IMG/VR virus record: IMGVR_UViG_3300022562_002149
Span: 1-25,685 of that record
Source of the DNA: a virus
Direction: 5' to 3' (one strand)
Length of the DNA: 25,685 nt
In this document: piece after piece, positions 1 through 14,019 of the stretch
How the letters are laid out: each line of letters begins with the position of its first letter
Position numbering within the stretch: position 1 is the first letter of the stretch
The notes under the pieces: model-generated
What the model was told of the DNA's origin: nothing
Databases searched by the model: none
Seen by the model: only the letters and a program-made list of their open reading frames with translations
Position numbers and translations under genes: made by a program

Positions 1-768
1 GGTGGCGGTGGCGTCGTTGGCGGGCGTGGCCTCGACCAGCTGGGTGACCTGGCCGAGCGTGTTCAGGTACTTGTTGGCGATGTCGGGGTTCGCCGAGATG
101 TCGATGAGGGAGCCGTCGTTGGCGGGGAACTGGGCGGACCCGTTCAGCTGGACCACCTGGCTCGCCCCCGTGCCGGCGTTCAGGACGGCAGAGGTCCCGA
201 GGCCGAGGTGGGCGCGGGCCTGCGTGGGCGTACGGATCGCCCAGGCGCCGGCCACGACCCACAGGCTCTTGTCGTTGTCCCCGGCCCCGACGACGGGCAG
301 GTTGCCGGAGCCCATGGCGACGCCGTCCAGCTGGCCCTTGTTGACCGCATCCTGGGCGTCCACACCGTCGGCGAGGGACTGGATGCGGCGGCTCTCGCCG
401 TCCCACTGGCCCGTACCGACGTTGAGCTCGAGGCGCTCCGCCGCCGTCATGATGTCCAGGGTCTCCTGGGCGATGTGGAGGAGCTGGAGGGAGTTCCGGT
501 CCAGGTCTTCCTGGCGGAGGACGGTCAGGTCCTGGAAGTCCACCAGGCGCTCGTCGTCCCCCGCGGGGGTGGAGCGCACGACCATGATGGTCTCGCCCCC
601 GACGATGGCGGGGCTCGAGAGGGTCAGGGTGTCATGGTCGTCCGACACCGTGAAGGTGGCGGGGGAGCCGTCCACCGTCACCGTCAGGTAGTCCGAGGAC
701 AGGAACTCGATCGTCAGGGCGTAGGCCTGCTGCGCGGCGACGCCGACGATGGTCTGTTGGGAGTACAC
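1..768 (-). CDS. Tail fibre protein, N-terminal part (T7 gp17-like), runs off the window
   Basis: This is the virion-anchoring end of the receptor-binding tail fibre. Reading from a GTG at 768, the frame is open for all 256 codons to base 1, so the gene continues beyond the window. Residues 1-150 follow the T7 gp17 N-terminal domain: a beta-rich start (QAYALTIEFLSSDYLTV), then RLVDFQDLTVLRQEDLD, then HIAQETLD, then RIQSLADGVDAQDAVNKGQL, which matches the T7 pattern RLVDFTDGSIL...RIVNLANAVDDRDAV. The part after about residue 150 is low-complexity and variable, as expected of a fibre shaft. It starts 3 nt after the stop of the gp16-like gene with no clear Shine-Dalgarno, so translation is probably coupled. 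The start is inferred: the first in-frame ATG is far inside the conserved domain, which favours the GTG. Confidence 0.88.
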   Translation of the reverse strand, partial: MYSQQTIVGVAAQQAYALTIEFLSSDYLTVTVDGSPATFTVSDDHDTLTLSSPAIVGGETIMVVRSTPAGDDERLVDFQDLTVLRQEDLDRNSLQLLHIAQETLDIMTAAERLELNVGTGQWDGESRRIQSLADGVDAQDAVNKGQLDGVAMGSGNLPVVGAGDNDKSLWVVAGAWAIRTPTQARAHLGLGTSAVLNAGTGASQVVQLNGSAQFPANDGSLIDISANPDIANKYLNTLGQVTQLVEATPANDATAT

Positions 769-771
769 GGG

Positions 772-3700
772 CTACTGGCGGGGTTGGAGGAGGGTCTGAA
801 TGAGCTGCTGCGCGGGGGCCGCGGTCGGCTGCTGGGTGGAGATGTCCTGCCCCTGGCGGAGGCGGGTCCGGCGCTCCACGCGCGACTGCTCGGCCTGGGC
901 CAGCTCGGGGAACTCGCGCAGGAGCTGCCGCCAGGCGGTGGCCCGGTAGTCCTCGATCCGGTTCTGGACCAGGGAGATGCGGGGGCTCTGCTGGTCCTCG
1001 GTCGAGTCCGGCGTGAGGCGCTTGTAGTTCGTGCTGGTCATGAGCTGCCGGAGGGAGGCCCGGAGGTCCTTCCCGCCCAGCTTCACCTTGCCCTGCAGCT
1101 CGAGCCAGCGGTCGTAGGCGTTCTGCCCGTTGCGGCCGATCACCTCGGTCAGGTCGAGGGCGCCCCGCGTGCGGCGCGGCGGGGTGAAGCCGTGCTTGAG
1201 GCGGGCGAGCTCCCGGTTCACGACGTCGTCCGAGACCTCCCGGTAGAGGATCGGGACGAAGGCGTTGAGGATGGAGGAGGCTTCGCTGCCCAGGCTCTTG
1301 GCCCGGTCCACCGGCTCGCCCAGCATGTTACGGAGCGGGGGGAGGGAGTCGCTCGCACCGGGCCACCGGGCGCGCATGGCGTCCATGATGCCGCGGACCT
1401 CGCGCATGTGGGGGTCCACGACGGGGACGACGGCCGCGAACTGGCCCGGGACGAAGGAGGCGGCCAGGGTGCGCATGTAGGTGGGGAACCGGCGCTGCGG
1501 GTCCTGGAGGGCCTCGAGAGCCCCGGCCAGGCCGGACAGGTAGGTCTTGTTCGTGAAGTTCGTCGCCAGGGCCACGGCGAAGCCGTAGGTTGCGTCCTCG
1601 ACGGCGCTCTGGTCCTCCGCGGCGGCGTACTTGACGTAGTTCACGAGGTCGGCGGCCGTCCCCATGACCGTGGCGAACGGGTCCAGGCGGGCGTAGGAGA
1701 CGTACTTGTCGCCGATGCGGATGGAGTACGGCTGCCAGCCGGAGGCTTCGAGGATCCGGCGCTGCTCCTTGTCGGACGGGCCGGCGCCCGTCAGGAGCGG
1801 GAGGCCGTCGTCGCCGGTCTCCGCCGCCTTGGTGATGACGAGGGTCGCGGTGGACATGCCGAAGGCCAGGCGGCCGATGGCGTCCGCCTTCCGGCGCGGG
1901 CTGCCCGAGAGCATGTCACGAACAAACAGGTTCTTCGAGCGCTCGAGGTTCGCGGCCAGGCTGGGGAAGCGCTTGGCGGCTAGGAGCTGAGCCACGCCGC
2001 CGAGGGCGCCCGTGGTTCGCTCGTGGGACGCCTTGATCAAGTTCACCGGGGTGCGCACGAACGGCATGACCAGGCGCAGGTAGGGGTGCGCGATCACGGC
2101 CTCTTGGATCCGGTAGGGGATCGTGCCGGGCGTCAGGGCCGCGGTGAACGTGGCTTCCTCCGCTCGCTCCTTGGCGGCCGTGGCGATGCTCTGGAGGCGC
2201 GAGTGCTCGGGGGACTCCGCGGCCTTGCGGACGTACTCCTGGGCGAACTCGTCCACCGCCGTCTTCGCCGTGAGGCCGCGGCGTGCGGCCTCCTCGACCC
2301 CTTTCTTGTAGAGGACGGCCTGGCCGTAGAGCTGGCCGCGGTGGAACAGCTTGTCCATCTCCGCCGCGACAAGCTCCCCCACGGCGCTCTTCGGGATGGC
2401 GGGGTTCTTGAGCAGCTCCTTGGTCAGCTGAGTGCGGGCGATGGATCGGGCGTTCAGCTGCTGGAAGAACTGGTCCGTGACCTGGAGGGTCTTGCTCGGC
2501 CAGCGGGTCAGCTTGCCAGCCCAGTTGATGGCGGCCCCGTGGACGCTGTCCGAGTCCGCCCCGAACGCCTCCGCGTTGATAGCGCCCGAGCGCACGTCGT
2601 GGATGTCCGACACGAGGGACTTCGGATCCAGGACCTCGCCCCCTCCGCGGAGGGAGGCCATGGCCGCCTCCCACGACTCGCGGGCCGAGTGGACCAGGTT
2701 GCCGATCTCGGCGATGCCGTCGGCCATGACCTCGCTGTTGCCGGTGAGGAGGCCGCCGGCGATGGTCTCGAGGGGGCGGTACACGGAGGCCAGGCCGTTG
2801 GACATGGCGTTGACCACGATCGTGGTCGGCCGGCCCAGGAGGCTGTTGTACCAGTACTCGTTCAGGATGCCGAACGCGCGGCGGCCGGCCACGCCCTTGG
2901 CCATGTCGATCCCGCGGGCCGCCCGGGTCAAGTCGTCCGGAGCGCCCTGGTGGAGGATGCGGTACTTCTCGGCGAGGGCCATGGCGCGCTTCCGGCCCCC
3001 CACCTCGTGGAGGGCGGCGTCGACCTCTTCGCGTCCGAACAGGCCCGGCTTGAACTTCACCGAGATGCGGTTCGCGCCCAGGCCGCGGCCCTGCTCCCCG
3101 AGGAGGGACTTGACGCCCAGCTCGAGGTCGTTCAGGGTGCTCAGGGACTGCATGAACTCGACCAGGTCCGCGTCGCTCCCCGTGGCCTTGAAGGCCTTGT
3201 CGGCCAGGCGGAAGGTGTGGTCGCCGTAGGCCTGGAGGGCGGTCTTGTAGGCCAGGACCCGGCGGTTGAGGGCGGTCAGGTCCGACACGTCCTTCTGGAG
3301 GGAGACCATGAGGCGGTGCGGGTTCCGCTCGCCTACGAGGTCCGCGAGCTCCTTGAGGCCCGCCTCCTCCTGCTGCTTGAGGGTCCGGCGGGAGGCGTCG
3401 CCCAGCCCGCGCAGCGGCTCGAGAAGTTGCTCGCTTGCGCGCAGGAGCTGGAGGGCTCCGTCCGGGCCGGTGTACCGGGACAGGTTGAGGTCCGTCTTGA
3501 GCATCCCCTGGGCAAAGCGCTCGGCCTCGGTCAGGTTGCGCGGGTTGACGCGCGGGTCGAGCTCGAGGATGCCGCCGACCTCTCCCTCGAGCGTGGCCTG
3601 GCGGCGCTTGGCCTCCTGGTAGAGGCTCTTGGCCGTCGCCTCGTCCACGTCGAAGGAGCGCAGGATGGCGGCCGGGTCCGGCGCGGCCTGGGGCAGCTTG

Positions 3701-4503
3701 ATCTGGGGCTCCGGGTCGGGGACCGGGCGGGTGGCGTCGATCGCCTCCGGCTGGGCAGGGGAGCCGATCTCGCCGGGCTTCGGGTCGCCCGGGTCGTAGT
3801 CGGCTGCGCGCCGCCAGGCGTCGTCAACGGCCTCCGGCGGGACGACCCCGTCCACGAGGGCCTCGACCTCCGCCTCGGGCAGACCCTTCGCCCGGGCCTC
3901 GCGGCCCACGCGGAGGCTCTTGAGCCCGAGCATGGTGAGCTCGGTCAGGGCGCCGACGCCTAGGCCCTCGAGCACGTTCTTGATCCGGCCCTCGATCTGG
4001 GAGTCGTCCTCCTTGGCGGAGAGGTACTCGGTGACCGGGTTCTGGAGGAGGGGGAAGGCCTGGATCAGGTTCGACAGGCGCTCCTCGTGGCCGTCGAAGA
4101 CGGCGAAGTCCGCGACCGCGCCCTTGACGGCGCCCTTCACGAACGGGGCCAGGCGGCCGAGCTTGGCCGTCCACCCGAGGGGGAGGAACCCCGCCCCCAC
4201 GAAGCCGGCCCCGAAGTTCGTGATGCCCTCGACCAGGCCCCCCACGGCCGTGCGGCTACGGCCCAGGATGCGCTCCTCGTAGTCGGGGAGGGCGTCGAAG
4301 GCGAGAGTGTCGGCCAGGCCGTAGAGGTCCTGGACGGCTCCTTCAACCCCCCGGAGGGGAGCGAAGGCCACGTCCCCGATCGACTCGAGCAGGGAGAGGT
4401 TCGGGGCCTCCTCCTGGGGCGGGGTGCTCGGCAGGAGCTGGGGGCGGGCCGCGGCGTTGCGGGCCTCCGCGGCGCGAGCGATCTCCTGGAGGGAGCGGGC
4501 CAT
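772..4503 (-). CDS. Internal virion protein D, gp16-like (1243 aa)
   Basis: Very large protein of the internal core, which in T7 is ejected at infection and helps form the channel across the cell envelope. The call rests on position (last gene before the fibre, after the gp13/14/15-like genes) and size (1243 aa against 1318 for T7 gp16). Large-protein features seen include EYWYNSLLGRPTTIVVNAMS, a hydrophobic FVGAGFLPLG stretch near the N-terminus, and MPFVRTPVNLIKASHERT. The N-terminus begins MARSLQEIARAAEARNAAA and shows no E-S-x-x-x lytic transglycosylase motif like that at the start of T7 gp16. A Pro/Asp/Glu-rich linker lies around residues 235-275. The ATG at 4503 overlaps the stop of the 44-aa gene by one base (TGATG). 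Similarity to T7 gp16 is weak by eye, so the assignment is mainly positional. Confidence 0.8.
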   Translation of the reverse strand: MARSLQEIARAAEARNAAARPQLLPSTPPQEEAPNLSLLESIGDVAFAPLRGVEGAVQDLYGLADTLAFDALPDYEERILGRSRTAVGGLVEGITNFGAGFVGAGFLPLGWTAKLGRLAPFVKGAVKGAVADFAVFDGHEERLSNLIQAFPLLQNPVTEYLSAKEDDSQIEGRIKNVLEGLGVGALTELTMLGLKSLRVGREARAKGLPEAEVEALVDGVVPPEAVDDAWRRAADYDPGDPKPGEIGSPAQPEAIDATRPVPDPEPQIKLPQAAPDPAAILRSFDVDEATAKSLYQEAKRRQATLEGEVGGILELDPRVNPRNLTEAERFAQGMLKTDLNLSRYTGPDGALQLLRASEQLLEPLRGLGDASRRTLKQQEEAGLKELADLVGERNPHRLMVSLQKDVSDLTALNRRVLAYKTALQAYGDHTFRLADKAFKATGSDADLVEFMQSLSTLNDLELGVKSLLGEQGRGLGANRISVKFKPGLFGREEVDAALHEVGGRKRAMALAEKYRILHQGAPDDLTRAARGIDMAKGVAGRRAFGILNEYWYNSLLGRPTTIVVNAMSNGLASVYRPLETIAGGLLTGNSEVMADGIAEIGNLVHSARESWEAAMASLRGGGEVLDPKSLVSDIHDVRSGAINAEAFGADSDSVHGAAINWAGKLTRWPSKTLQVTDQFFQQLNARSIARTQLTKELLKNPAIPKSAVGELVAAEMDKLFHRGQLYGQAVLYKKGVEEAARRGLTAKTAVDEFAQEYVRKAAESPEHSRLQSIATAAKERAEEATFTAALTPGTIPYRIQEAVIAHPYLRLVMPFVRTPVNLIKASHERTTGALGGVAQLLAAKRFPSLAANLERSKNLFVRDMLSGSPRRKADAIGRLAFGMSTATLVITKAAETGDDGLPLLTGAGPSDKEQRRILEASGWQPYSIRIGDKYVSYARLDPFATVMGTAADLVNYVKYAAAEDQSAVEDATYGFAVALATNFTNKTYLSGLAGALEALQDPQRRFPTYMRTLAASFVPGQFAAVVPVVDPHMREVRGIMDAMRARWPGASDSLPPLRNMLGEPVDRAKSLGSEASSILNAFVPILYREVSDDVVNRELARLKHGFTPPRRTRGALDLTEVIGRNGQNAYDRWLELQGKVKLGGKDLRASLRQLMTSTNYKRLTPDSTEDQQSPRISLVQNRIEDYRATAWRQLLREFPELAQAEQSRVERRTRLRQGQDISTQQPTAAPAQQLIQTLLQPRQ

Positions 4504-4637
4504 CAGCGCTTCTTGTGCTTGAAGTACTCGATCTGGCGGAGGCGCTTCTGGGCCTGCGCCTTGGAGCGGTACGTGCCGAAGGAGCGGCCCGTGGTGTGGG
4601 ACACGACCTTGTAGCCCTTGGGGGTCTTCCGGATCAT
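4503..4637 (-). CDS. Small basic phage protein (44 aa), unknown function
   Basis: A 44-aa, Lys/Arg-rich protein that begins MIRKTPKGYKVVSHTTGRSF and ends in FKHKKR. The pattern 'GYKVVSHxTGRxxGxYxxKxxAxKRLxQIxxFK' is one I recognise as recurring in small hypothetical phage proteins, but I know no function. It sits exactly between the gp15-like and gp16-like genes. Its ATG overlaps the gp15-like stop by 4 nt (ATGA) and its TGA overlaps the gp16-like ATG by 1 nt, so it is embedded in the internal-core operon and should be co-translated. The strong positive charge suggests nucleic-acid contact or packaging in the virion core. That is inference only. Confidence 0.75.
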   Translation of the reverse strand: MIRKTPKGYKVVSHTTGRSFGTYRSKAQAQKRLRQIEYFKHKKR

Positions 4638-7402
4638 TGGGTCCTCAGGATGGCGTTGTACTGGGCGTCCTCCCACTCCTCGCGGGCTCCCGCATCCTCC
4701 GGGTCCAGGCCAAGTCGGCGCAGGAAGTCCGGGTAGGCGGGGTCCGACAGGAAGGCGTGGAACGCCTCCGGGGAGCGGAAGAAGGGAGTCGTGTACGGGG
4801 GGAAGTTGACGTCCGAGATGTCGAGCACGATGGGCGTCAGCCGGTCCTGTAGAGCCCGCATGGTCTCTTCGTAGGCCGGGATGGTGATGCCGTGGGCCTT
4901 GAGCTGCTTGTGGACGTCGATCTCGCGCAGGACGGCTTCCGAGTCCGGCGGTAGGATCTGGACCCTCCCGGCCAAGACCGCGGTCGCGTCCACGCCCATG
5001 ACCGAGAGCATTGCGGCCCCGGCCTGGTTGCGAAGCGGTCGCGGGGTGCTCGTGAGTAGACGGTAGGCGGTCGCCTCGACATCGGCCCGGGTAGTCGGGC
5101 GGCTGAGGATCGGGTCCCGCCCGGACATCCAGTTGGCGGCCTCTTTGTAGAAGGAGGCGGGGACGTCGGGGCTCGGGTTGGGGGCGATGTCGGCCGGACC
5201 GAGATGCTCGCGGAACTCGGGGACGGAGAAGCGGACCCCGAGGGCCTGGCTCAGGGCCAGGTCGTTCTTGAGGTCGGCCGCGGCCTGGGCAGACTCCGCG
5301 GAGCTCTCGCCCTTCGGGATGCCTGCCTGGATGCGGGACCGGCCTCCGGGGAACAGCTGGTCGGAGACCTCCTTCCGGGTGGCCTGGAGAGCGGCGCGGG
5401 AGCGGAGCTCGAAGGTGGACGGGCTGGCCTTCGGATCGCCCAGGAAGGCGTCCAGCTTCTCCGAGTAGGCGTCGCGGAAGCTCTGCTTGGCGACGTCGAG
5501 GGCGGTGATCTGCTCGGGCGTGGGGGACACTCCGCCGAGCTCGGCCTGCCACTGCTGCTCGAGGAAGCGCTCCTCATCCCGGTAGGCGTCCGACTGGAAG
5601 AAGCGCTCCCGGGCGGCGATGGCCTTGTCGTTCTCCTCGCGGAGCCCCTGGGCCTCCAGGAGCGTCAGGGAGCCGTTCGCCAGGCCGGCGTCGATCTGCT
5701 CGCGCGAGTCCTGGAACCGGGAGAGTCGCTGGCGAACGTCCACCTCGAGCTGGTCGCGGCGGGAGCGGATGTCGTCCTCGAGCTGGCGGAGGATCTGGGA
5801 GTCCTGGGCCTCGCGGTCCTCGAGCCAGGTGCGCACGAGGCGCTCCCGGTCCGGCTGGCCCACGGTGCTGCGAACGAAGGCGGCGGCGTCCGTCTCGAGC
5901 TTGCGTTCCAGGTCCAGGGCCCGGGCGTCGAGCTTGGCCTGGATCTCGCCCGCGAAGCCCTGCGGGCGCTCGGAGCGGTAGCGGCTCTTGAGGGCGGCGT
6001 ACTGGCCGTTGTTCTCGAGGAAGGGACTGACCGAGCGGCGCTGCTCCAGGTCGCCCAGGGCGGAGGCGTAGTCCGAGCCGTTCAGGCTCCCGCTGGCGAG
6101 GGCGCCCTTGGCGAGGGCCTGCGCGTCCTCGAGCCGGCCGTCGGCCAGGAGGACGTTGAAGTCGTTGATGACTTGCTGGTCGCTCTGACGGTTGGCATCG
6201 ACGTGGCGGGCGAACTCGTACAGCTCGTTCACGACGAACGCCCCGTTGCCGCCGAACTCGCCCGTGGCGTCGTCCTCCTGGAGGAACTGGCGGGCGAGCT
6301 GGTCTGCGACCTGCGTCACACTATGTCCCTCCTCGCGGGCCTGGAGCAGGAGGCGCACGTAGCGGGACTCGCCCTTCTGGATGGCGACCTTGCGCTCCGC
6401 GTCCGTCTTCTGGGCCTCGCGTACCCGCGACTCGCGCTGGTTCTCGCGGTACTTGTCCAGCATGTTCTGGAGGCGGAGCCCGTACTCACCGCGGTCGTCG
6501 CCGAGGCGCACCCCGCCGATCACCAGGTCCTCGGCCGCGTGCACGGCGCGCAGGGTCTCGTCCGCGTCCACGGAGGCCAGACGCTCGAAGGAAACCTCCA
6601 GGGCGTTCAGGACGAGCTCGCGGGGGTTCTGGACGTTGTGGCCGTACACCTCCTGGTCCAGGAACTGGGTGAGGGGTGCCAGCGTCTCGGAGTCGATGAC
6701 CTGGTTGGTCGCCACGAGCCGGTCGAAGCGCGATCCGATGTCGCGGGCCAGGTCGGAGCGGTAGGTCTCCTCCTGGGCCTTGGCGAGGTTCATCCCGGCC
6801 CGGGTCCGGAACTCCTCATCCACCTGGGCCTTCACGCCGATGGCTTCCTGCTGGCCGTAGAAGCCCCCGAGGGCCGGGCTCTGGGAGATCTTCTCCCACT
6901 CCTGGGCGAGGATCTGGTCCGCGGAGGGGGGCTCCACCGGCTGGCCGTTGGCGTCGCGCAGGGTGGTCGTCTCGTTCATCCGCTGCAGTACGCGGTCCCG
7001 GTAGCTGGTGACGAGCAGGCGGGCGGTAGCCCGCTGGCGGCCGATCTGCCAGTAGGGGTCGGCGGCGGCAGGGATGCTCCCGTTGCGCTGGAGGAAGTCG
7101 AACTGCTCCTTGAGCCACTTCGAGCGATCGTCCGCATCCTTGATCGCGGCGGCCTCTTCCTCGAGCTGGCGCACGAGGTCCGGGCGCTCGATGGCCCACG
7201 CCTCGCCGGCCTGGATCTTGCGCTCGGCGTCCCGCTTCGCCTCCTCCTGGAAGTACCCCTGGAGGGTGTTCGAGATGGGGGAGAAGTCGAGGAGCGGGGT
7301 CCGGATCTGGCCCGGGTCCGCAAAGCCGTCCACCGGGGCCGCGATCGGCGTCGGCCGGAGGGTCTCCTGGAGAGCCTGGACGGGGTTGCGGCGGCGGGCC
7401 AT
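4634..7402 (-). CDS. Internal virion protein C, gp15-like (922 aa)
   Basis: Component of the internal core that is ejected with the DNA and, in T7, forms a trans-periplasmic tube with gp16. The protein is long, charged and mostly helical: repeated Q/E/R-rich segments such as LEEEAAAIKDADDRSKWLKE near residue 85, and a very Arg/Asp/Gln-rich middle. The N-terminal region, with a Pro-rich start then SPISNTLQGYFQEEAKRDAE, and its place between gp14-like and gp16-like genes fit gp15 of T7 (747 aa). This copy is about 175 residues longer. The ATG at 7402 has a GGAG 8 nt upstream (7411-7414). The stop overlaps the next start (ATGA at 4634-4637). No enzyme motif was seen. Confidence 0.8.
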   Translation of the reverse strand: MARRRNPVQALQETLRPTPIAAPVDGFADPGQIRTPLLDFSPISNTLQGYFQEEAKRDAERKIQAGEAWAIERPDLVRQLEEEAAAIKDADDRSKWLKEQFDFLQRNGSIPAAADPYWQIGRQRATARLLVTSYRDRVLQRMNETTTLRDANGQPVEPPSADQILAQEWEKISQSPALGGFYGQQEAIGVKAQVDEEFRTRAGMNLAKAQEETYRSDLARDIGSRFDRLVATNQVIDSETLAPLTQFLDQEVYGHNVQNPRELVLNALEVSFERLASVDADETLRAVHAAEDLVIGGVRLGDDRGEYGLRLQNMLDKYRENQRESRVREAQKTDAERKVAIQKGESRYVRLLLQAREEGHSVTQVADQLARQFLQEDDATGEFGGNGAFVVNELYEFARHVDANRQSDQQVINDFNVLLADGRLEDAQALAKGALASGSLNGSDYASALGDLEQRRSVSPFLENNGQYAALKSRYRSERPQGFAGEIQAKLDARALDLERKLETDAAAFVRSTVGQPDRERLVRTWLEDREAQDSQILRQLEDDIRSRRDQLEVDVRQRLSRFQDSREQIDAGLANGSLTLLEAQGLREENDKAIAARERFFQSDAYRDEERFLEQQWQAELGGVSPTPEQITALDVAKQSFRDAYSEKLDAFLGDPKASPSTFELRSRAALQATRKEVSDQLFPGGRSRIQAGIPKGESSAESAQAAADLKNDLALSQALGVRFSVPEFREHLGPADIAPNPSPDVPASFYKEAANWMSGRDPILSRPTTRADVEATAYRLLTSTPRPLRNQAGAAMLSVMGVDATAVLAGRVQILPPDSEAVLREIDVHKQLKAHGITIPAYEETMRALQDRLTPIVLDISDVNFPPYTTPFFRSPEAFHAFLSDPAYPDFLRRLGLDPEDAGAREEWEDAQYNAILRTQ

Positions 7403-7931: not shown

Positions 7932-8390
7932 TCAGATCTCGAAGAGCCAGAACGGGCGCTGTTCGTGGCCGAAGGTGGGGTCGAGGTGGACGAAGCGGGC
8001 GCCCAGCCACTCGAGCCACCGGATGTGGGTGTGGTTGCGGGCGTCCACGTAGTTCGTGAGGCGGGTGAAGGGGTGGCGCATGCGCTCGAGCTCCTCCCGA
8101 CTCCGGCGGAGGAACTCGCGGCTGTGCGCTTCGATCTCGGGAGAGCCGAGGAGCCAGGGGGCCCCCAGGTCCGGCTGGCCGGGGACGGTGGCGACGCCGA
8201 AGAGGGCGATCGGCTGGCCGTTGGCGAGGAGGGCGCGCGGGTGGCGCGTGACCTCCAGGGCCGTGTTGAGGGCCTCGAGCGGGGCCTGGCCGGAGGCGGC
8301 CTGGCACTCGGCCACGTCCTCGGGGCGCAGGCGGGGGGCCAGGTACTCGGCGTCCTCCAGGGCGGCCGGGTAGACGACGAGGCGGTTCAC
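7932..8390 (-). CDS. gp13-like internal virion / acetyltransferase-fold protein (152 aa)
   Basis: In T7, gp13 is required for assembly of the internal core. The frame is open much further upstream, but the gene proper starts at the GTG at 8390, which overlaps the tail tubular protein B stop by 4 nt (GTGA). Residues 1-30 (VVYPAALEDAEYLAPRLRPED) resemble the start of GNAT-fold phage proteins, and residues 113-152 (NYVDARNHTHIRWLEWLGA then FGHEQRPFWLFEI) match the T7 gp13 end (NYVWVGNTSHIRFLKTIGAVF...FQLFTI). The acetyl-CoA binding loop is not obvious, so catalysis is doubtful and a structural role is more likely. Confidence 0.82.
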   Translation of the reverse strand: MNRLVVYPAALEDAEYLAPRLRPEDVAECQAASGQAPLEALNTALEVTRHPRALLANGQPIALFGVATVPGQPDLGAPWLLGSPEIEAHSREFLRRSREELERMRHPFTRLTNYVDARNHTHIRWLEWLGARFVHLDPTFGHEQRPFWLFEI

Positions 8391-11300
8391 AGGGTCGCGG
8401 CGCGGGCGCGGTAGCGGATCTCCCAGCGGCCCGACTGGACGAAGCTCGGGAAGGGGGACTCGTTCACGAGGGTGCAGTCGATCTCCTTGGAGTTCCCGAT
8501 GATGAAGAAGGACGCTCCCCCAGTGTACAGGCCCAGGGTGCCGGAGAGCAGGAGGCCCGTTCCGAGGCCGGCGGCCGTGAACGTCTCGGTCGTGGTCGGG
8601 CGCAGGTCCCGGGCCACCGAGCACTTGAGGATGGCCGTGTCGGCCAGATACAGGTGCAGCTGGTGGACGTCCACGGGGGCGCCCACGCGGGGGACGAGGC
8701 CCTGCTCGCGGCCCTCCTGGACGACCGGCTCGCTCAGGACGACGCGCATGTCGAAGCGCTCCCCGATGTAGAGCTGGGCCGCGGAGAAGTCGTCGGACAC
8801 GGTGATCGTGTTCGAGGTCTGGGCGATGATCGGAACCAGGAGCCCCGAGGCGCGGTCGACCACCTGCATCGTGGCCGTGCCGGAGATCGTGTAGGGGAGC
8901 GTCAGGACGGTCTCGTCCGGGCCCCCCGAGTAGACGGCGGTGACCTGGGTCTCGTTCAGGCGGCGGTCCAGGAGAGCAATCGGGAGGCCGTTGTCCTCCT
9001 CGAGCTCGGTGGTCGTGGAGAGGGCCTCCAGGTGGACTCCGTCCGAGCGCTCCACGACCAGGCGGGCGTCGTCGCCGAGGAACCCGATGCCGAGCACGCT
9101 GGCCCCCGCGTCGAAGGTCCACTTGAAGGAGGCCGACTGGAGGAGGCTCTCGTCCGTGGCGTAGAAGGCCTGGTGCACGCCCAGGCGGGACAGGTCGGCG
9201 TCCGTCTGGATGAGGGTCAGGTTCGTCAGGGTCGAGTGGGCCATCCGCAGGCCGGCGCCGGGGTGGTAGCGCGGGCAGGCGGTCGTGAGCTCCTCGACGG
9301 AGAAGACGGTGGCGTCCTTGACGAGGGAAGCGAACAGGAGGCCGGTGAAGGCGCCCGTCTGGCGGGCGAAGAGGATGCCGCGGTCCCATCCCACGGGGCG
9401 GACCTGGGGCAGGTTCTCGAACGCCCTGACGGGCGCTAGCTGGGCGGTGGAGGGGGACAGGACCGGCTCCGCCAGGAGCTCGAACTGGTCGCGCTCGCTG
9501 ATGATGAGGCAGCGGTCGGCGGTCAGGCCCACGTTGCGGAACTTCCCGCTGTTCTGGATGCCCGAGCTGATGTCGATGGGGTCCGTGTCGAGGAGGCTGC
9601 GGACGGTGGTCCGCCAGAGGTTGAAGATCTCCTCCGCCTCGGACAGGATAACGTGGTCGTTCGTCAGGAAGCCCAGGCGCCCGCGGTACAGGAACATCTC
9701 GGCGATCTTCTCGCCGATGAACGAGGGGGCCGGGTTCGAGGTGTCGTCGCCCACGAGGCGGTCGTCCCACGGGCAGGGGCCCACGTCGAAGTACACCTGG
9801 CCCGGGATGGTGGTGATCGTCCCGGCCGCGTCGTCGATCAGGCGGCGGACCCGATGGGGGAGCGTGTCCCCGGGGAGGGTGATGGGGATGCCCGGGGCGG
9901 GGCACTCGACCCAGTGGCCCTTGTAGAAGTTGTCGGCCTCGAGCTCGAACTTGACGTAGTAGTCGTCCTCGACGCTGACGGCGTCCCCGATGACCTTGGC
10001 CACCGGATCCGCGTTGTCGGGTAGGACGACAGGCAGGTCGGTGAGGTCTTTCACCTCGCCCCCGTCCGAACGGAAGGCCACGAGCAACGTGTCGCCCTGG
10101 CCGTCGTGGGCCGTGACGTCGTTGAAGACCTCGGTCCCGTCCACGAGCTGGAAGGCCGAGCCCACGGGCGTGCTGGCGATGAAGAAGGCCCCGGCCGTGA
10201 TGGCCGTGCTCAGCTGGGTGGCGATCGTCTCCGTTTCCGCCGTCGTCGTGGTGCCGGGGGTGTAGGAGTAGAGGCGGTCCGGGCCCCCGGCCTTGCGGAT
10301 GACGACCGTGTAGGGTATGTCCACCTGGCCGCCGACCTTCACGAAGACGATGGCCTTCTGGTGGCCGAGGCCGTCGTAGCTCGAGCCGGTCACGGGGCCG
10401 ACCGTCTGCTCCGTGTTCAGGATGAAGGTGTTGTCCGCGGCGGTCAGGGGGCGGAACAGGTCCGGCCGCGTGTACAGGTAGCTCGGGGCGGTCTGGACAC
10501 TGTCGTGCACCCGGGCCCCGAAGAGGAGGGCGTTCTTGTTCTCGGGGGTGGCCGCGTTCGTGTGGAAGCGGATCCGGAACTGGCGGGCACCGCCCGCAGC
10601 CAGCCAGCCCGGCGGGGGGAAGCCGGCGGAGGCCGTCACCACGATCACGCAGCGATACCAGCCGTTGCCGTGGTCCTCGACGTAGGCCGAGACCGTGGAC
10701 CCGGTGGTGATCGTCGTGCCGACCGTCACGACGCCCCCGGCGCTGATGTCGAAGCGCGCCCCGGCGTAGTTCGTGAGGAAGGGGTCGTTCAGGAGCATCA
10801 GCTCCACGTCGTTGATCGCGGTCGCGTTCTTCTTCACGAAGACGGAGGCGACGTTGTAGACGGAGAAGAGCCCCGCGACCTGGTAGATGTCGCTGATGCT
10901 CGAGACGGCGTCGTTGCCCACGAGGGCGACCGTGTCCGAGGTGACCGCGCTGGCGCTCTGGAAGCGGCCGAAGCCAAACGGCCCCCGGCCCGCGACGTAG
11001 GAGACGACGCTGTTGCCGACGGCCGAGAGCCACCCGCCGCCGAGCACGAAGTCCTCGTCCGAGGTGAGCTCGCCACCCGCCCGGCGGGGGTTCAGGTACG
11101 AGATGGGGGTCCCGCTGCCGACGGCCCCGCGCCCGACGTCCGTCGAGGTCCCGTTCCACTTCACCGGGTACTCCTCCCCGGTGTCCGCGTTGAACGCCCG
11201 GAGCCGGCGCTCGCCGATGAGGAGCTGGTAGCGCTCAGTCTCGTCGCGGCTGATCAGGTGGGTCTGGATGACGGACTCGAGGCCGGTCACCAGGCGCCGG

Positions 11301-11452
11301 ATGTGGCGCGAGCCCTTGCGCTTGCCGAGGCCGTTGACGACGTGGAGGATGACGTTCTCGGCCTCGGTCACCTGGCCGGGCAGGCGGGCGGCCGGGGGCT
11401 GCTGGCTGACCCCGCCCAGGAGGTGGGGGATCGGCAGCTCGTGGAGGGGCAC
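8387..11452 (-). CDS. Tail tubular protein B (gp12-like) with large insertion (1021 aa)
   Basis: Forms the tail nozzle and lower tube of T7-like virions. Residues 8-50 carry the family signature (PHLLGGVSQQPPAARLPGQ, later ENVILHVVNGLGKRKGS), equal to the GGISQQ...QKRPP region of T7 gp12. Later landmarks also match: DLFRPLTAADNTFILN (331-346; T7 DLRMVTVADYTFIVN) and the segment with FIGEKIAEMFLYRGRLGFL, SEAEEIFNLWR and TDPIDISS. Between residues about 98 and 328 lies an insertion absent from T7 gp12 (794 aa); without it this protein would be about 790 aa. The GTG start follows the tail tubular protein A stop directly (TAG then GTG). The insertion is annotated separately. Confidence 0.93.
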   Translation of the reverse strand: MPLHELPIPHLLGGVSQQPPAARLPGQVTEAENVILHVVNGLGKRKGSRHIRRLVTGLESVIQTHLISRDETERYQLLIGERRLRAFNADTGEEYPVKWNGTSTDVGRGAVGSGTPISYLNPRRAGGELTSDEDFVLGGGWLSAVGNSVVSYVAGRGPFGFGRFQSASAVTSDTVALVGNDAVSSISDIYQVAGLFSVYNVASVFVKKNATAINDVELMLLNDPFLTNYAGARFDISAGGVVTVGTTITTGSTVSAYVEDHGNGWYRCVIVVTASAGFPPPGWLAAGGARQFRIRFHTNAATPENKNALLFGARVHDSVQTAPSYLYTRPDLFRPLTAADNTFILNTEQTVGPVTGSSYDGLGHQKAIVFVKVGGQVDIPYTVVIRKAGGPDRLYSYTPGTTTTAETETIATQLSTAITAGAFFIASTPVGSAFQLVDGTEVFNDVTAHDGQGDTLLVAFRSDGGEVKDLTDLPVVLPDNADPVAKVIGDAVSVEDDYYVKFELEADNFYKGHWVECPAPGIPITLPGDTLPHRVRRLIDDAAGTITTIPGQVYFDVGPCPWDDRLVGDDTSNPAPSFIGEKIAEMFLYRGRLGFLTNDHVILSEAEEIFNLWRTTVRSLLDTDPIDISSGIQNSGKFRNVGLTADRCLIISERDQFELLAEPVLSPSTAQLAPVRAFENLPQVRPVGWDRGILFARQTGAFTGLLFASLVKDATVFSVEELTTACPRYHPGAGLRMAHSTLTNLTLIQTDADLSRLGVHQAFYATDESLLQSASFKWTFDAGASVLGIGFLGDDARLVVERSDGVHLEALSTTTELEEDNGLPIALLDRRLNETQVTAVYSGGPDETVLTLPYTISGTATMQVVDRASGLLVPIIAQTSNTITVSDDFSAAQLYIGERFDMRVVLSEPVVQEGREQGLVPRVGAPVDVHQLHLYLADTAILKCSVARDLRPTTTETFTAAGLGTGLLLSGTLGLYTGGASFFIIGNSKEIDCTLVNESPFPSFVQSGRWEIRYRARAATL
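10469..11161 (-). other. Inserted jelly-roll / carbohydrate-binding-like domain inside tail tubular protein B
   Basis: Domain covering residues about 98-328 of the gp12-like protein. It is Gly/Ser/Val-rich and shows the arrangement common in phage tail-fibre and tail-spike carbohydrate-binding modules: FSVYNVASVFVKKNATAIND, then ARFDISAGGVVTV, then the strand GNGWYRCVIVVTASAG, then RIRFHTNAA, LLFGARVHDSVQTAPSYLYT. The last two correspond to the familiar 'GWYRC...V.L.GAQLE.G...TSYI.T' pattern. Its flanks are the contiguous T7 gp12 sequence (…EEYPVKWNG before, DLFRPL after). Domain recognition is from remembered patterns, not a search. Confidence 0.65.
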
Positions 11453-12109
11453 CTAGATGCTCTCGAGGTTGTCGAGGGGGGACCGGCGGCGCACGATCTG
11501 GCGGATGCCCGGCGCGTTGAGGAGGTTCACGTCGTGCGTGTCGAGCTCCTCCTTGGCGAGGATCTGCAGCGCCCGCGCCTCGTCGTCGGCGGAGAAGCGG
11601 TACTGCTGCGGGTCCGTGATCAGGCGGGCCTGGGTCGTCCGGCCGGCCTTGATCGTCACGTAGTGGCGGAAGGAGTCCGGCGTGTGGTCGAAGTCCAGGA
11701 GGCGGACCAGGTCGACGCGCACGTCGCCCACGGCGGAGAAGTCGTAGGGGTCCTCGTCGCGGCGGGCGGCCAGCTTGTCGTACAGCTTCATCTCCCCGTC
11801 GTCGGGGTCCACCCGCATGGCGATGTCGGTGCCGTAGCTGCCCCAGGACAGGCGCTTGGCGTTGTCGACGCGGGCCACGTCGTCGGTGAGGAAGACGTCC
11901 CCGTTCACGTCCGGGGTCAGCTTGACGCTGTACTCCGAGTTGAAGTGCCAGCCGATCAGCTGGACGTGACGGTTCTGGAAGTCCAGCTCCGCGAGGGCGA
12001 TCGCCGCGTCCGGCGACAGGTCAGCCGGGGCCAGGCTCGAGACCGGCATGCGGCCGAGCATCCGGAGGATGGTGTTCACGGCCTCGAGCTGGGTGAGACG
12101 GGCGGGCAT
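11453..12109 (-). CDS. Tail tubular protein A (gp11-like, 218 aa)
   Basis: Adaptor ring between portal and nozzle. The start RLTQLEAVNTILRMLGRMPV is typical of the family ('E.VN.iL...G..PV..L'). Residues around 49-57 give the hallmark QLIGWHFNSEY, equal to the GW.FN.E motif of T7 gp11. The later segment with LYDKLAARRDED and VDLVRLLDFDHTPDSFRHYV follows the family order. Length is 218 aa (T7 gp11 has 196). The ATG at 12109 has no obvious Shine-Dalgarno. It is preceded by the hairpin at 12131-12163, so it probably depends on read-through of that hairpin or on another promoter. Confidence 0.93.
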   Translation of the reverse strand: MPARLTQLEAVNTILRMLGRMPVSSLAPADLSPDAAIALAELDFQNRHVQLIGWHFNSEYSVKLTPDVNGDVFLTDDVARVDNAKRLSWGSYGTDIAMRVDPDDGEMKLYDKLAARRDEDPYDFSAVGDVRVDLVRLLDFDHTPDSFRHYVTIKAGRTTQARLITDPQQYRFSADDEARALQILAKEELDTHDVNLLNAPGIRQIVRRRSPLDNLESI

Positions 12110-13488: not shown

Positions 13489-14019
13489 CTACTCGACGTT
13501 GCCCAGGCGGGTGACCTGGATGTAGCTGCCCGGGCGAATCGTGCCCGTGGCGCCGGCCGTGTGCCAGGCGACGTGGAGCTCGAGGACGCGGGCCGACGTG
13601 ACCGTCAGGAGGACCTTCGTGTGGAAGCCCGTGCTCGAGGCGCTGAGGAGGACGGCGCCCTGGATGGCGTCGAGCTCGAGGTCAGGCGTGGCCGCGGCGG
13701 CCTGCGTCAGGGCGACGCCGAAGTCCGAGTCCGTACCGCCTTCCTGGAGCAGGAGACTCACCTCCACCTCGTACACGCCCGGCTCGAGGTTGATCCGGTC
13801 GTTCGCGTCGTCGAGGCTGATGCTGCCCTGGGTCAGGCTCAGCCCCTTCGGGGACAGGGCCTTGCTCGACTGGGCGGCCGAGAGGGCGATCTTGGAGCCC
13901 GCAGCGGGGAAGGAGCCGGCGGCGACGACGGTGGGCGTGACGGCGGCGGAGAAGCGGTGGAGGAGCGTCGTCGGGTAGACGGGCTCCTTCGTGAAGGGTT
14001 CGTACTGGCGTCCGGACAT
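13489..14019 (-). CDS. Beta-rich protein, possible capsid decoration or head-fibre protein (176 aa)
   Basis: Not a T7 homologue that I recognise. After an N-terminal tail (MSGRQYEPFTKEPVYPTTLL) the protein is strand-rich and small-residue-rich. Residues 67-95 (SISLDDANDRINLEPGVYEV) and the end (GSYIQVTRLG, 164-173) resemble C1q/TNF-like beta-sandwich domains, whose last strand often reads 'GSyl.V.rLg' and whose 'G.Y.v...l' strand sits mid-domain. Such domains are common in phage head fibres and decoration proteins. The gene lies between scaffold-side genes and the capsid gene, which favours a head role. It starts ATG at 14019, 9 nt after the lipoprotein-like stop, without a clear Shine-Dalgarno. 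The function is inferred. Confidence 0.6.
   Translation of the reverse strand: MSGRQYEPFTKEPVYPTTLLHRFSAAVTPTVVAAGSFPAAGSKIALSAAQSSKALSPKGLSLTQGSISLDDANDRINLEPGVYEVEVSLLLQEGGTDSDFGVALTQAAAATPDLELDAIQGAVLLSASSTGFHTKVLLTVTSARVLELHVAWHTAGATGTIRPGSYIQVTRLGNVE

Follow-up and report, generated by a model that had tools for sequence, protein, structure and literature searches.

The question raised by this locus is why a T7-type tail nozzle protein should carry a large additional block, and what that block may do for the virion. The window, that is the whole stretch of 25,685 nucleotides that was analysed, is an IMG/VR virus record in which profile searches identified, on the minus strand, a set of T7-like genes. 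The set comprises part of an RNA polymerase gene, genes for primase-helicase, portal (head-tail connector), scaffold and capsid, relatives of gp11, gp12, gp14 and gp16, and the start of a fibre gene. Within it the nozzle gene adjoins that for gp11, whose product is the expected partner beneath the nozzle. The genes for the tail proteins discussed here are:

1..768, minus strand: T7-type tail fibre, N-terminal 256 amino acids, ended by the contig edge (Pfam PF03906 Phage_T7_tail, E=4.5e-24)
8387..11452, minus strand: gp12-like tail nozzle (tail tubular protein B) with an inserted domain, 1021 amino acids (Pfam, PHROG, T7 gp12 fold)
11453..12109, minus strand: gp11-like tail tube A or adaptor (Pfam PF17212 Tube, E=8e-34)

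Elsewhere in the window, a 176-aa frame in the scaffold/capsid interval (13489-14019, minus strand) gave no PHROG match and no Pfam match above cut-off, and a 922-aa frame in the position of T7 gp15 (4634-7402, minus strand) had no significant Pfam or PHROG match. The latter is overlapped by a 349-aa frame (4503-5552).

The nozzle frame has a GTG start and is open over its 1021 aa. It matched Pfam PF25675 Phage_nozzle in two stretches (E=1.5e-140; 470.3 bits against a cut-off of 27) and PHROG 457 (E=6e-137). In a phmmer search of solved structures, the P-SCSP1u nozzle (8i4m) aligned to residues 2-103 and 331-1019 (E=3.9e-82), and the best aligned stretch for T7 gp12 (6r21, 794 aa) was residues 334-1018, in agreement with the original prediction that nozzle sequence lies on both sides of the block. 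That prediction put the block at residues 98-328. When aligned with 39 insert-free nozzle relatives, residues 120-328 of the window protein (209 residues) stand against 7-14 residues in each relative, and the native nozzle sequence YL falls at residues 119-120, with Y119 invariant and L120 nearly so. Based on this conserved YL and on the short stretch that the relatives have there, the insert was assigned to approximately residues 121-328; the block is real, and its predicted start was about 23 residues too early.

10469..11092, minus strand: inserted domain resembling a carbohydrate-binding module (CBM) and the GTA head spike fibre, residues ~121-328 (nozzle alignment, NF048003, PHROG 5939, AlphaFold model, fold matches)

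Without 231 residues the nozzle has a length of 790, and without 208 one of 813, so that, as had been claimed, removal of the block nearly restores the length of T7 gp12 (794). The GWYRC and FGARVHD...PSYLYT motifs on which the claim of a carbohydrate-binding domain had drawn are present. The possibility that PSYLYT is merely the native YL loop of the nozzle was rejected, since the alignments place that loop ahead of the insert. An assembly artefact is unlikely because a domain of the same kind occupies the same site in nine other contigs (L201 and L202 being near-copies) with nine different IMG sample numbers.

A model of the full-length protein was compared with T7 gp12 (6r21, 7ey7). The predicted core as a whole has the gp12 fold, which comprises a platform, a 7-bladed propeller, the tip and the fibre dock (VIA Z 34.6 and 34.2 over 745-752 residues), and T7 has no domain at the blade 2-3 loop. 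Most insert residues had a pLDDT below 50 in this model because that stretch had no aligned relatives; fibre domains and nozzles had been combined in one MAFFT alignment, whose misplaced rows left the insert without alignment support. The placement of the insert relative to the core is therefore not given by the full-length model, and its position was read from the order of the strands on either side.

11156..11272, minus strand: propeller blade 2, residues 61-99, just ahead of the insert (strands 61-68, 74-80, 84-88 and 97-99 in the full model)
10415..10456, minus strand: start of propeller blade 3, residues 333-346, FRPLTAADNTFILN, just past the insert (strands 333-338 and 341-346)

The numbering of the blades was inferred from the description of T7, in which three platform strands are drawn from the first 45 residues, the first propeller strand closes blade 1 and the tip is reached through a loop of blade 3 (PMC6702177; here and below, statements on cited papers refer to those sections of them that were available). 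D340, T342 and N346, at the start of blade 3, are invariant in the nozzle alignment. The order of the modelled strands, read against the descriptions of T7 and SU10, places the insert between propeller blades 2 and 3. In SU10 blades 1-3 are located at a distance from the tail axis, and additional domains are inserted after blade 2 and before blade 3 (PMC9509320); the Ig-like domain IG1 of crAss001 is in the same position (PMC10172136). The slot was thus already known, and the insert of the window protein probably faces outward; the kind of domain found in the slot appears new to us.

The insert was also modelled by itself. The AlphaFold model, based on a 61-row alignment, was all-beta with a pTM of 0.79 and a mean pLDDT of 76.8, and in this model the insert is a complete, self-contained beta-sandwich domain. 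Its top solved matches were the tail fibres of the Pseudomonas phages Pa193 and E217 (9b45 and 8env; Foldseek 2.3e-7 and 1.1e-6; VIA Z 18.8 and 16.2; 18-20% identity), which are trimeric fibres of contractile phages matched over chain residues ~180-417. A carbohydrate-binding domain is annotated near the N terminus of the E217 fibre (PMC10329688), and this is presumably the stretch matched by the insert. Next in order were the K2-2 tailspike and many CBMs, CBM4-2 included, together with some enzymes of CBM fold. The CBM4-2 and CBM16 chains superposed with Z scores of 11.2-11.7 (2.6-2.9 A over 135-145 residues), as would be expected of a CBM-type beta-sandwich. Stig cyclases such as HpiC1 also matched (Z 10.4-10.8); since enzymes share the fold, it gives no function by itself. 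The best matches listed were fibre and CBM folds, and an Ig-like family outside that listing may also share the fold. A fold search of BFVD gave 71 matches at E<=0.001, and among the best 50 of the 71, which were mostly unnamed, no nozzle was named. The fold comparisons thus favour the claim of a carbohydrate-binding-like domain on the nozzle rather than on the fibre: the predicted core matches T7 gp12 without the block, and the block appears as a separate beta-sandwich related to the CBMs of phage fibres.

At the level of sequence, the insert matched the NCBIfam model NF048003 GTA_spike_fiber (E=2e-8) with 34.9 bits, against a curated cut-off of 36 bits. The scores obtained for the window (34.9, 33.5 and 34.2 bits) were all below this cut-off, and its copy is therefore regarded as homologous without being filed as a member of NF048003. 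The match covered residues 25-164 of a 222-aa stretch and positions 19-137 of the 182 in the model, the C-terminal part lying outside. The 61-row alignment, assembled on the D-x-G-N-G-W-Y-R signature, runs along the domain and takes in that C-terminal part, extending from an SExF...W region near the domain start to a final S-Y-I-P-T (PSYLYT in the window).

10649..10675, minus strand: family signature DHGNGWYRC, residues 260-268, invariant in the 61-row alignment

The invariance of this signature is a consequence of the other rows having been gathered with the same pattern. Among the nine aligned nozzle inserts, the window's included, W265 is found in eight and R267 in all nine, and W141, P158, G245, G264 and G312 are, like R267, identical throughout. 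The conserved Trp and Arg positions are family-wide and may have a structural role.

Residues 98-328 matched the tail protein family PHROG 5939 (E=5.9e-8) and gave no Pfam family at E<=1, CBM models included, so that a CBM of the CAZy type was not recognised by sequence. One of the 61 aligned family members matched DUF6322 (Pfam, 0.0073). A fibre-type profile was constructed from 113 domains, with the window excluded, taken from IMG/VR frames carrying D-x-G-N-G-W-Y-R-C among the matches listed. It scored 57.1 bits against the window protein (domain 56.2) and, with the 9-residue motif blanked, 13.6 bits (domain 12.7). In 200 shuffles of the insert no score exceeded 1.3, and the match is thus more than chance. 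Phage records searched by tblastn with the window insert gave nothing at 0.01 and, in a looser run, one chance match (E=2); the inserts of five relatives gave nothing at 0.1, and no isolate with a similar insert was found among these records. The same searches recovered none of the fibre homologues, from which it follows that tblastn readily misses this domain family and that absence here carries little weight. Scanning IMG/VR with the insert as a single sequence returned no relatives.

The distribution of the domain was investigated in 246 nozzle frames (211 unique) among the matches listed, a non-random sample in which one search had used carriers as query. A search of all frames in the first 80 nozzle loci with the domain profile gave nothing better than a chance match (E=0.32); a number of these loci, L018, L045 and L063 among them, are fragments in which the site is missing. 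The site was measured in 204 unique nozzles: nine had at least 150 extra aa, one had 40-149 and 194 had fewer than 40. The block is thus not present in most of the T7-like gp12 proteins examined, which is the opposite of what would have refuted the original prediction. The nine carriers (L201, L202, L370, L283, L286, L373, L412, L403 and L372) represent eight lineages besides the window. Of the relatives reached by a portal search, L201 and L202, with portals 62% identical to that of the window, carry the domain and L204 (portal 47%) is without it. The fibre-domain profile matched seven of the nine. L403 and L372 were matched solely by a profile built from the other nozzle inserts, L403 with 43.6 bits (best shuffle 8.3) and L372, whose match is weak, with 13.6 bits (best shuffle 7.5).

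NF048003 was found inside the nozzle frame, once per record, in nine of 11 records, namely the window, seven of the nine site carriers and L430. Three of the 11, the nozzle domains of L286 (50.4 bits), L373 (39.4) and L430 (63.5), were over the cut-off. It matched neither L403 nor L372, nor any of 20 records whose nozzles have no insert or one of another kind. Matches were also obtained in five of 14 unrelated control genomes (three over the cut-off), and the domain is consequently widespread and not specific to phage adhesins. The GTA_spike_fiber-like domain of L430 (5799-6374) is at another nozzle site, corresponding to about residue 876 of the window protein. By a second measure, 13 of 210 unique nozzles had at least 80 extra residues at profile positions 84-120; none of the additional four (L409, L318, L307 and L360) matches the inserted domain. 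Whole-nozzle tblastn searches of phage records were judged by coverage of at least 80%. Such coverage was reached by no record for the window protein (best 60 of 2404 matching records) or L286 (best 12 of 2512) and by two for L283 (best 12 of 2477), the stretch matched in those two (2316 bases) being too short to include the insert.

With regard to the history of the insert, the window and L201 are 50.5% identical in the insert and 50.8% in the C-terminal core, a near equality which indicates that insert and nozzle travelled together. In L283 the identity of the insert was 25.5% against 30.4-35.7% for the core, and in L286 it was 21.8% against 29.3-33.6%, with an overall nozzle identity of 28%. 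In a tree of the cores without inserts, four carriers lie on one side of a branch with an SH-aLRT of 97 (short search), and eight carriers group with the insert-free L381 at a support of 84 (short search). L412 falls outside this group on a long branch with L207. Nine carrier rows (the window, and L201 standing for L202) required two changes on this tree, in which several rows were flagged for odd composition that may pull them together. The tree of the domain did not recover a single origin of the inserts and is compatible with one or several. The original prediction had raised the question of whether the insertion is mobile. The answer is mostly no, insert and core having diverged together in the window and L201 and most carriers grouping on the nozzle tree; the other site in L430 speaks for mobility to the extent that at least two nozzle acquisitions are likely. 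From these comparisons the insert appears to be of long standing and passed down by descent, in a lineage of mostly high G+C content, rather than newly mobile. The G+C content of carriers is mostly 0.61-0.71 (0.50 in L403). As a separate observation, the median locus G+C across the 246 nozzle frames is 0.41, and 11 of the 18 loci above 0.60 carry a blade 2-3 insert (eight distinct contigs among the 11), an excess that may be due to shared ancestry. Origin as a copy from the phage's own fibre was considered and rejected: NF048003 occurs once per record, in the nozzle, and the fetched fibre stretches of the window, L283 and L286 had no profile match, the window fibre being incomplete.

Several known systems resemble this arrangement in part. 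The head spike fibre of RcGTA binds capsule polysaccharide (PMC10218006, PMC7296036) and is linked to the insert through the name of the NF048003 model. The insert is homologous by that model (E=2e-8), and relatives in the same slot reach 39.4 and 50.4 bits; the RcGTA protein, however, forms a fibre of its own, attached to the head of a gene transfer agent, whereas the window domain lies inside a podovirus nozzle. The muzzle protein gp44 of phiCrAss001 and the SU10 nozzle likewise have extra beta-sandwich domains between blades 2 and 3, but these are Ig-like and carbohydrate binding is not mentioned for them in the available sections (PMC10172136, PMC9509320). TTPB, the nozzle protein of phage OWB, is reported to bind whole Vibrio cells by way of a membrane protein and to inhibit adsorption when added beforehand (PMC7241545), so a nozzle is able to contact the host; the partner bound there was a protein (Vp0980), not a sugar. 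The KP32 protein TTPA has a lectin-like sheet (PMC5440376) and, unlike the window protein, is an adaptor.

The reading we prefer, with a probability of roughly 65%, is that the insert is a domain of glycan-binding type which serves as an auxiliary adhesin on the nozzle, alongside the fibres. The computed evidence behind it consists of the homology, a fold model obtained independently, the place of insertion as read from the sequence, the conservation in relatives and the fibre gene start in the contig. If the nozzle is hexameric as in T7, each virion would have six copies of the domain, which would be located on the propeller's outer face, close to where the fibres dock. By analogy with the RcGTA head spike fibres, the domains would bind polysaccharide at the surface, be it capsule, O antigen or another exopolysaccharide, through weak, polyvalent contacts, and the window's own copy would share this affinity for sugar. 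Once bound next to the ejection channel, they could keep the tail at the surface and set its orientation during the fibres' search for the receptor. A T7-type fibre N-terminus was identified in seven of the 11 domain-carrying records, the window included (L201 and L202 end less than 2 kb from the nozzle), and the nozzle domain thus seems to be additional to the fibre and not a replacement for it. In the window phage the presence of such a fibre start makes a second contact point possible.

A stronger version of this reading, which we consider quite unlikely, is that the six domains, anchored between blades 2 and 3 and gripping glycan, would force the propellers apart once bound, in which case ejection could be triggered by a surface glycan as well as by the fibre. 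It is suggested by the report that the tight gate of the T7 nozzle opens only by displacement of whole propellers or protomers (PMC6702177). If true, the nozzle would act as a gate operated by a receptor, and the blade 2-3 slot would serve phages generally as a port for the exchange of trigger domains. The chief rival to an auxiliary adhesin, which we rate as improbable on balance, is a structural role: the domain would pack on the tail fibre, on the dock of that fibre or on the adjoining nozzle subunit, and in this way stabilise the closed tail or position the fibres without binding sugar. This is how the occupants of the same slot are described in SU10, where the domains between blades 2 and 3 are reported as tail-stabilising and nozzle-forming and nozzle domain 4 contacts the fibre-dock loop of the neighbouring subunit (PMC9509320), and the slot is filled by an Ig-like domain in crAss001 as well (PMC10172136). 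The SU10 and crAss001 domains are Ig-like, however, whereas that of the window groups with fibre domains, one of them a known capsule binder. The divergence of the insert can be cited on both sides. Between the window and L201 it has changed about as much as the core, and not faster as an adhesin tracking its host might; in the distant carriers L283 and L286 it is less conserved than the core.

An adhesive domain need not be directed at glycan, and its target might be a protein of the cell surface or the material surrounding the host (particles, mucus or biofilm matrix). TTPA and TTPB of OWB bind a membrane protein (PMC7241545), and the Peru-2 paper, in its available sections, discusses the Ig-like domains of tailed phages as accessory adsorption modules and reports mucin binding by T3. 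We hold a target of this sort to be decidedly unlikely, since those relatives of the domain that have been characterised or annotated bind capsule or carry a carbohydrate-binding annotation. It is highly improbable that the insert is a functionless passenger left by recombination. The structural genes of phages are mosaic, and most nozzles manage without the domain, as the 194 of 204 with fewer than 40 extra residues attest. The insert is nevertheless in frame, whole and in the same place in nine other contigs, across nozzles as little as 28% identical overall (L286), with six residues unchanged in all nine aligned inserts. Finally, the notion that the block is part of the nozzle core, or common to most T7-like gp12 proteins, is refuted for practical purposes by the match of the core to T7 gp12 without it, by its absence from the first 80 loci, of which some are fragments, and by the same count of 194 among 204.

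In the available portions of the full-text literature, no report of a T7-type nozzle with an inserted carbohydrate-binding domain was recognised. Both halves of the arrangement, the fibre-type domain and the accessory slot, are known, and their combination in a T7-type nozzle appears to be new. How T7-like phages sense the right surface, and whether the nozzle touches the host, are unsettled matters, on which one case has been reported, that of OWB. A recognisable domain of glycan-binding type is present at one site in some nozzles and missing from others, and these nozzles form a natural set in which the question could be tested with one recombinant domain. The blade 2-3 loop also emerges as a place in which distantly related podophages have repeatedly accommodated accessory domains.

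Other loops of the nozzle have been enlarged as well. Among the 210 unique nozzles, inserts of at least 80 aa cluster at profile positions 84-120 (13 nozzles), 179-253 and 571-691, a pattern that would fit loops open to the insertion of accessory domains. Inside blade 2, L409 has a 241-aa insert (3744-4466) which by eye looks like a lectin of the LamG/ConA type and gave no Pfam or PHROG match. The L318 nozzle, a stop-to-stop frame of 1679 aa, contains inserts of 437 and 398 aa (474-1784 and 2241-3434), near blades 2-3 and in the tip region, likewise with no Pfam or PHROG match. At the site used by L430, L016 has a glycine-rich linker and a fibronectin-III-like domain (5735-6220; Pfam fn3 E=0.02, below the cut-off; PHROG 7440 E=5.6e-6), and inserts of similar size are found there in L031 and L034.
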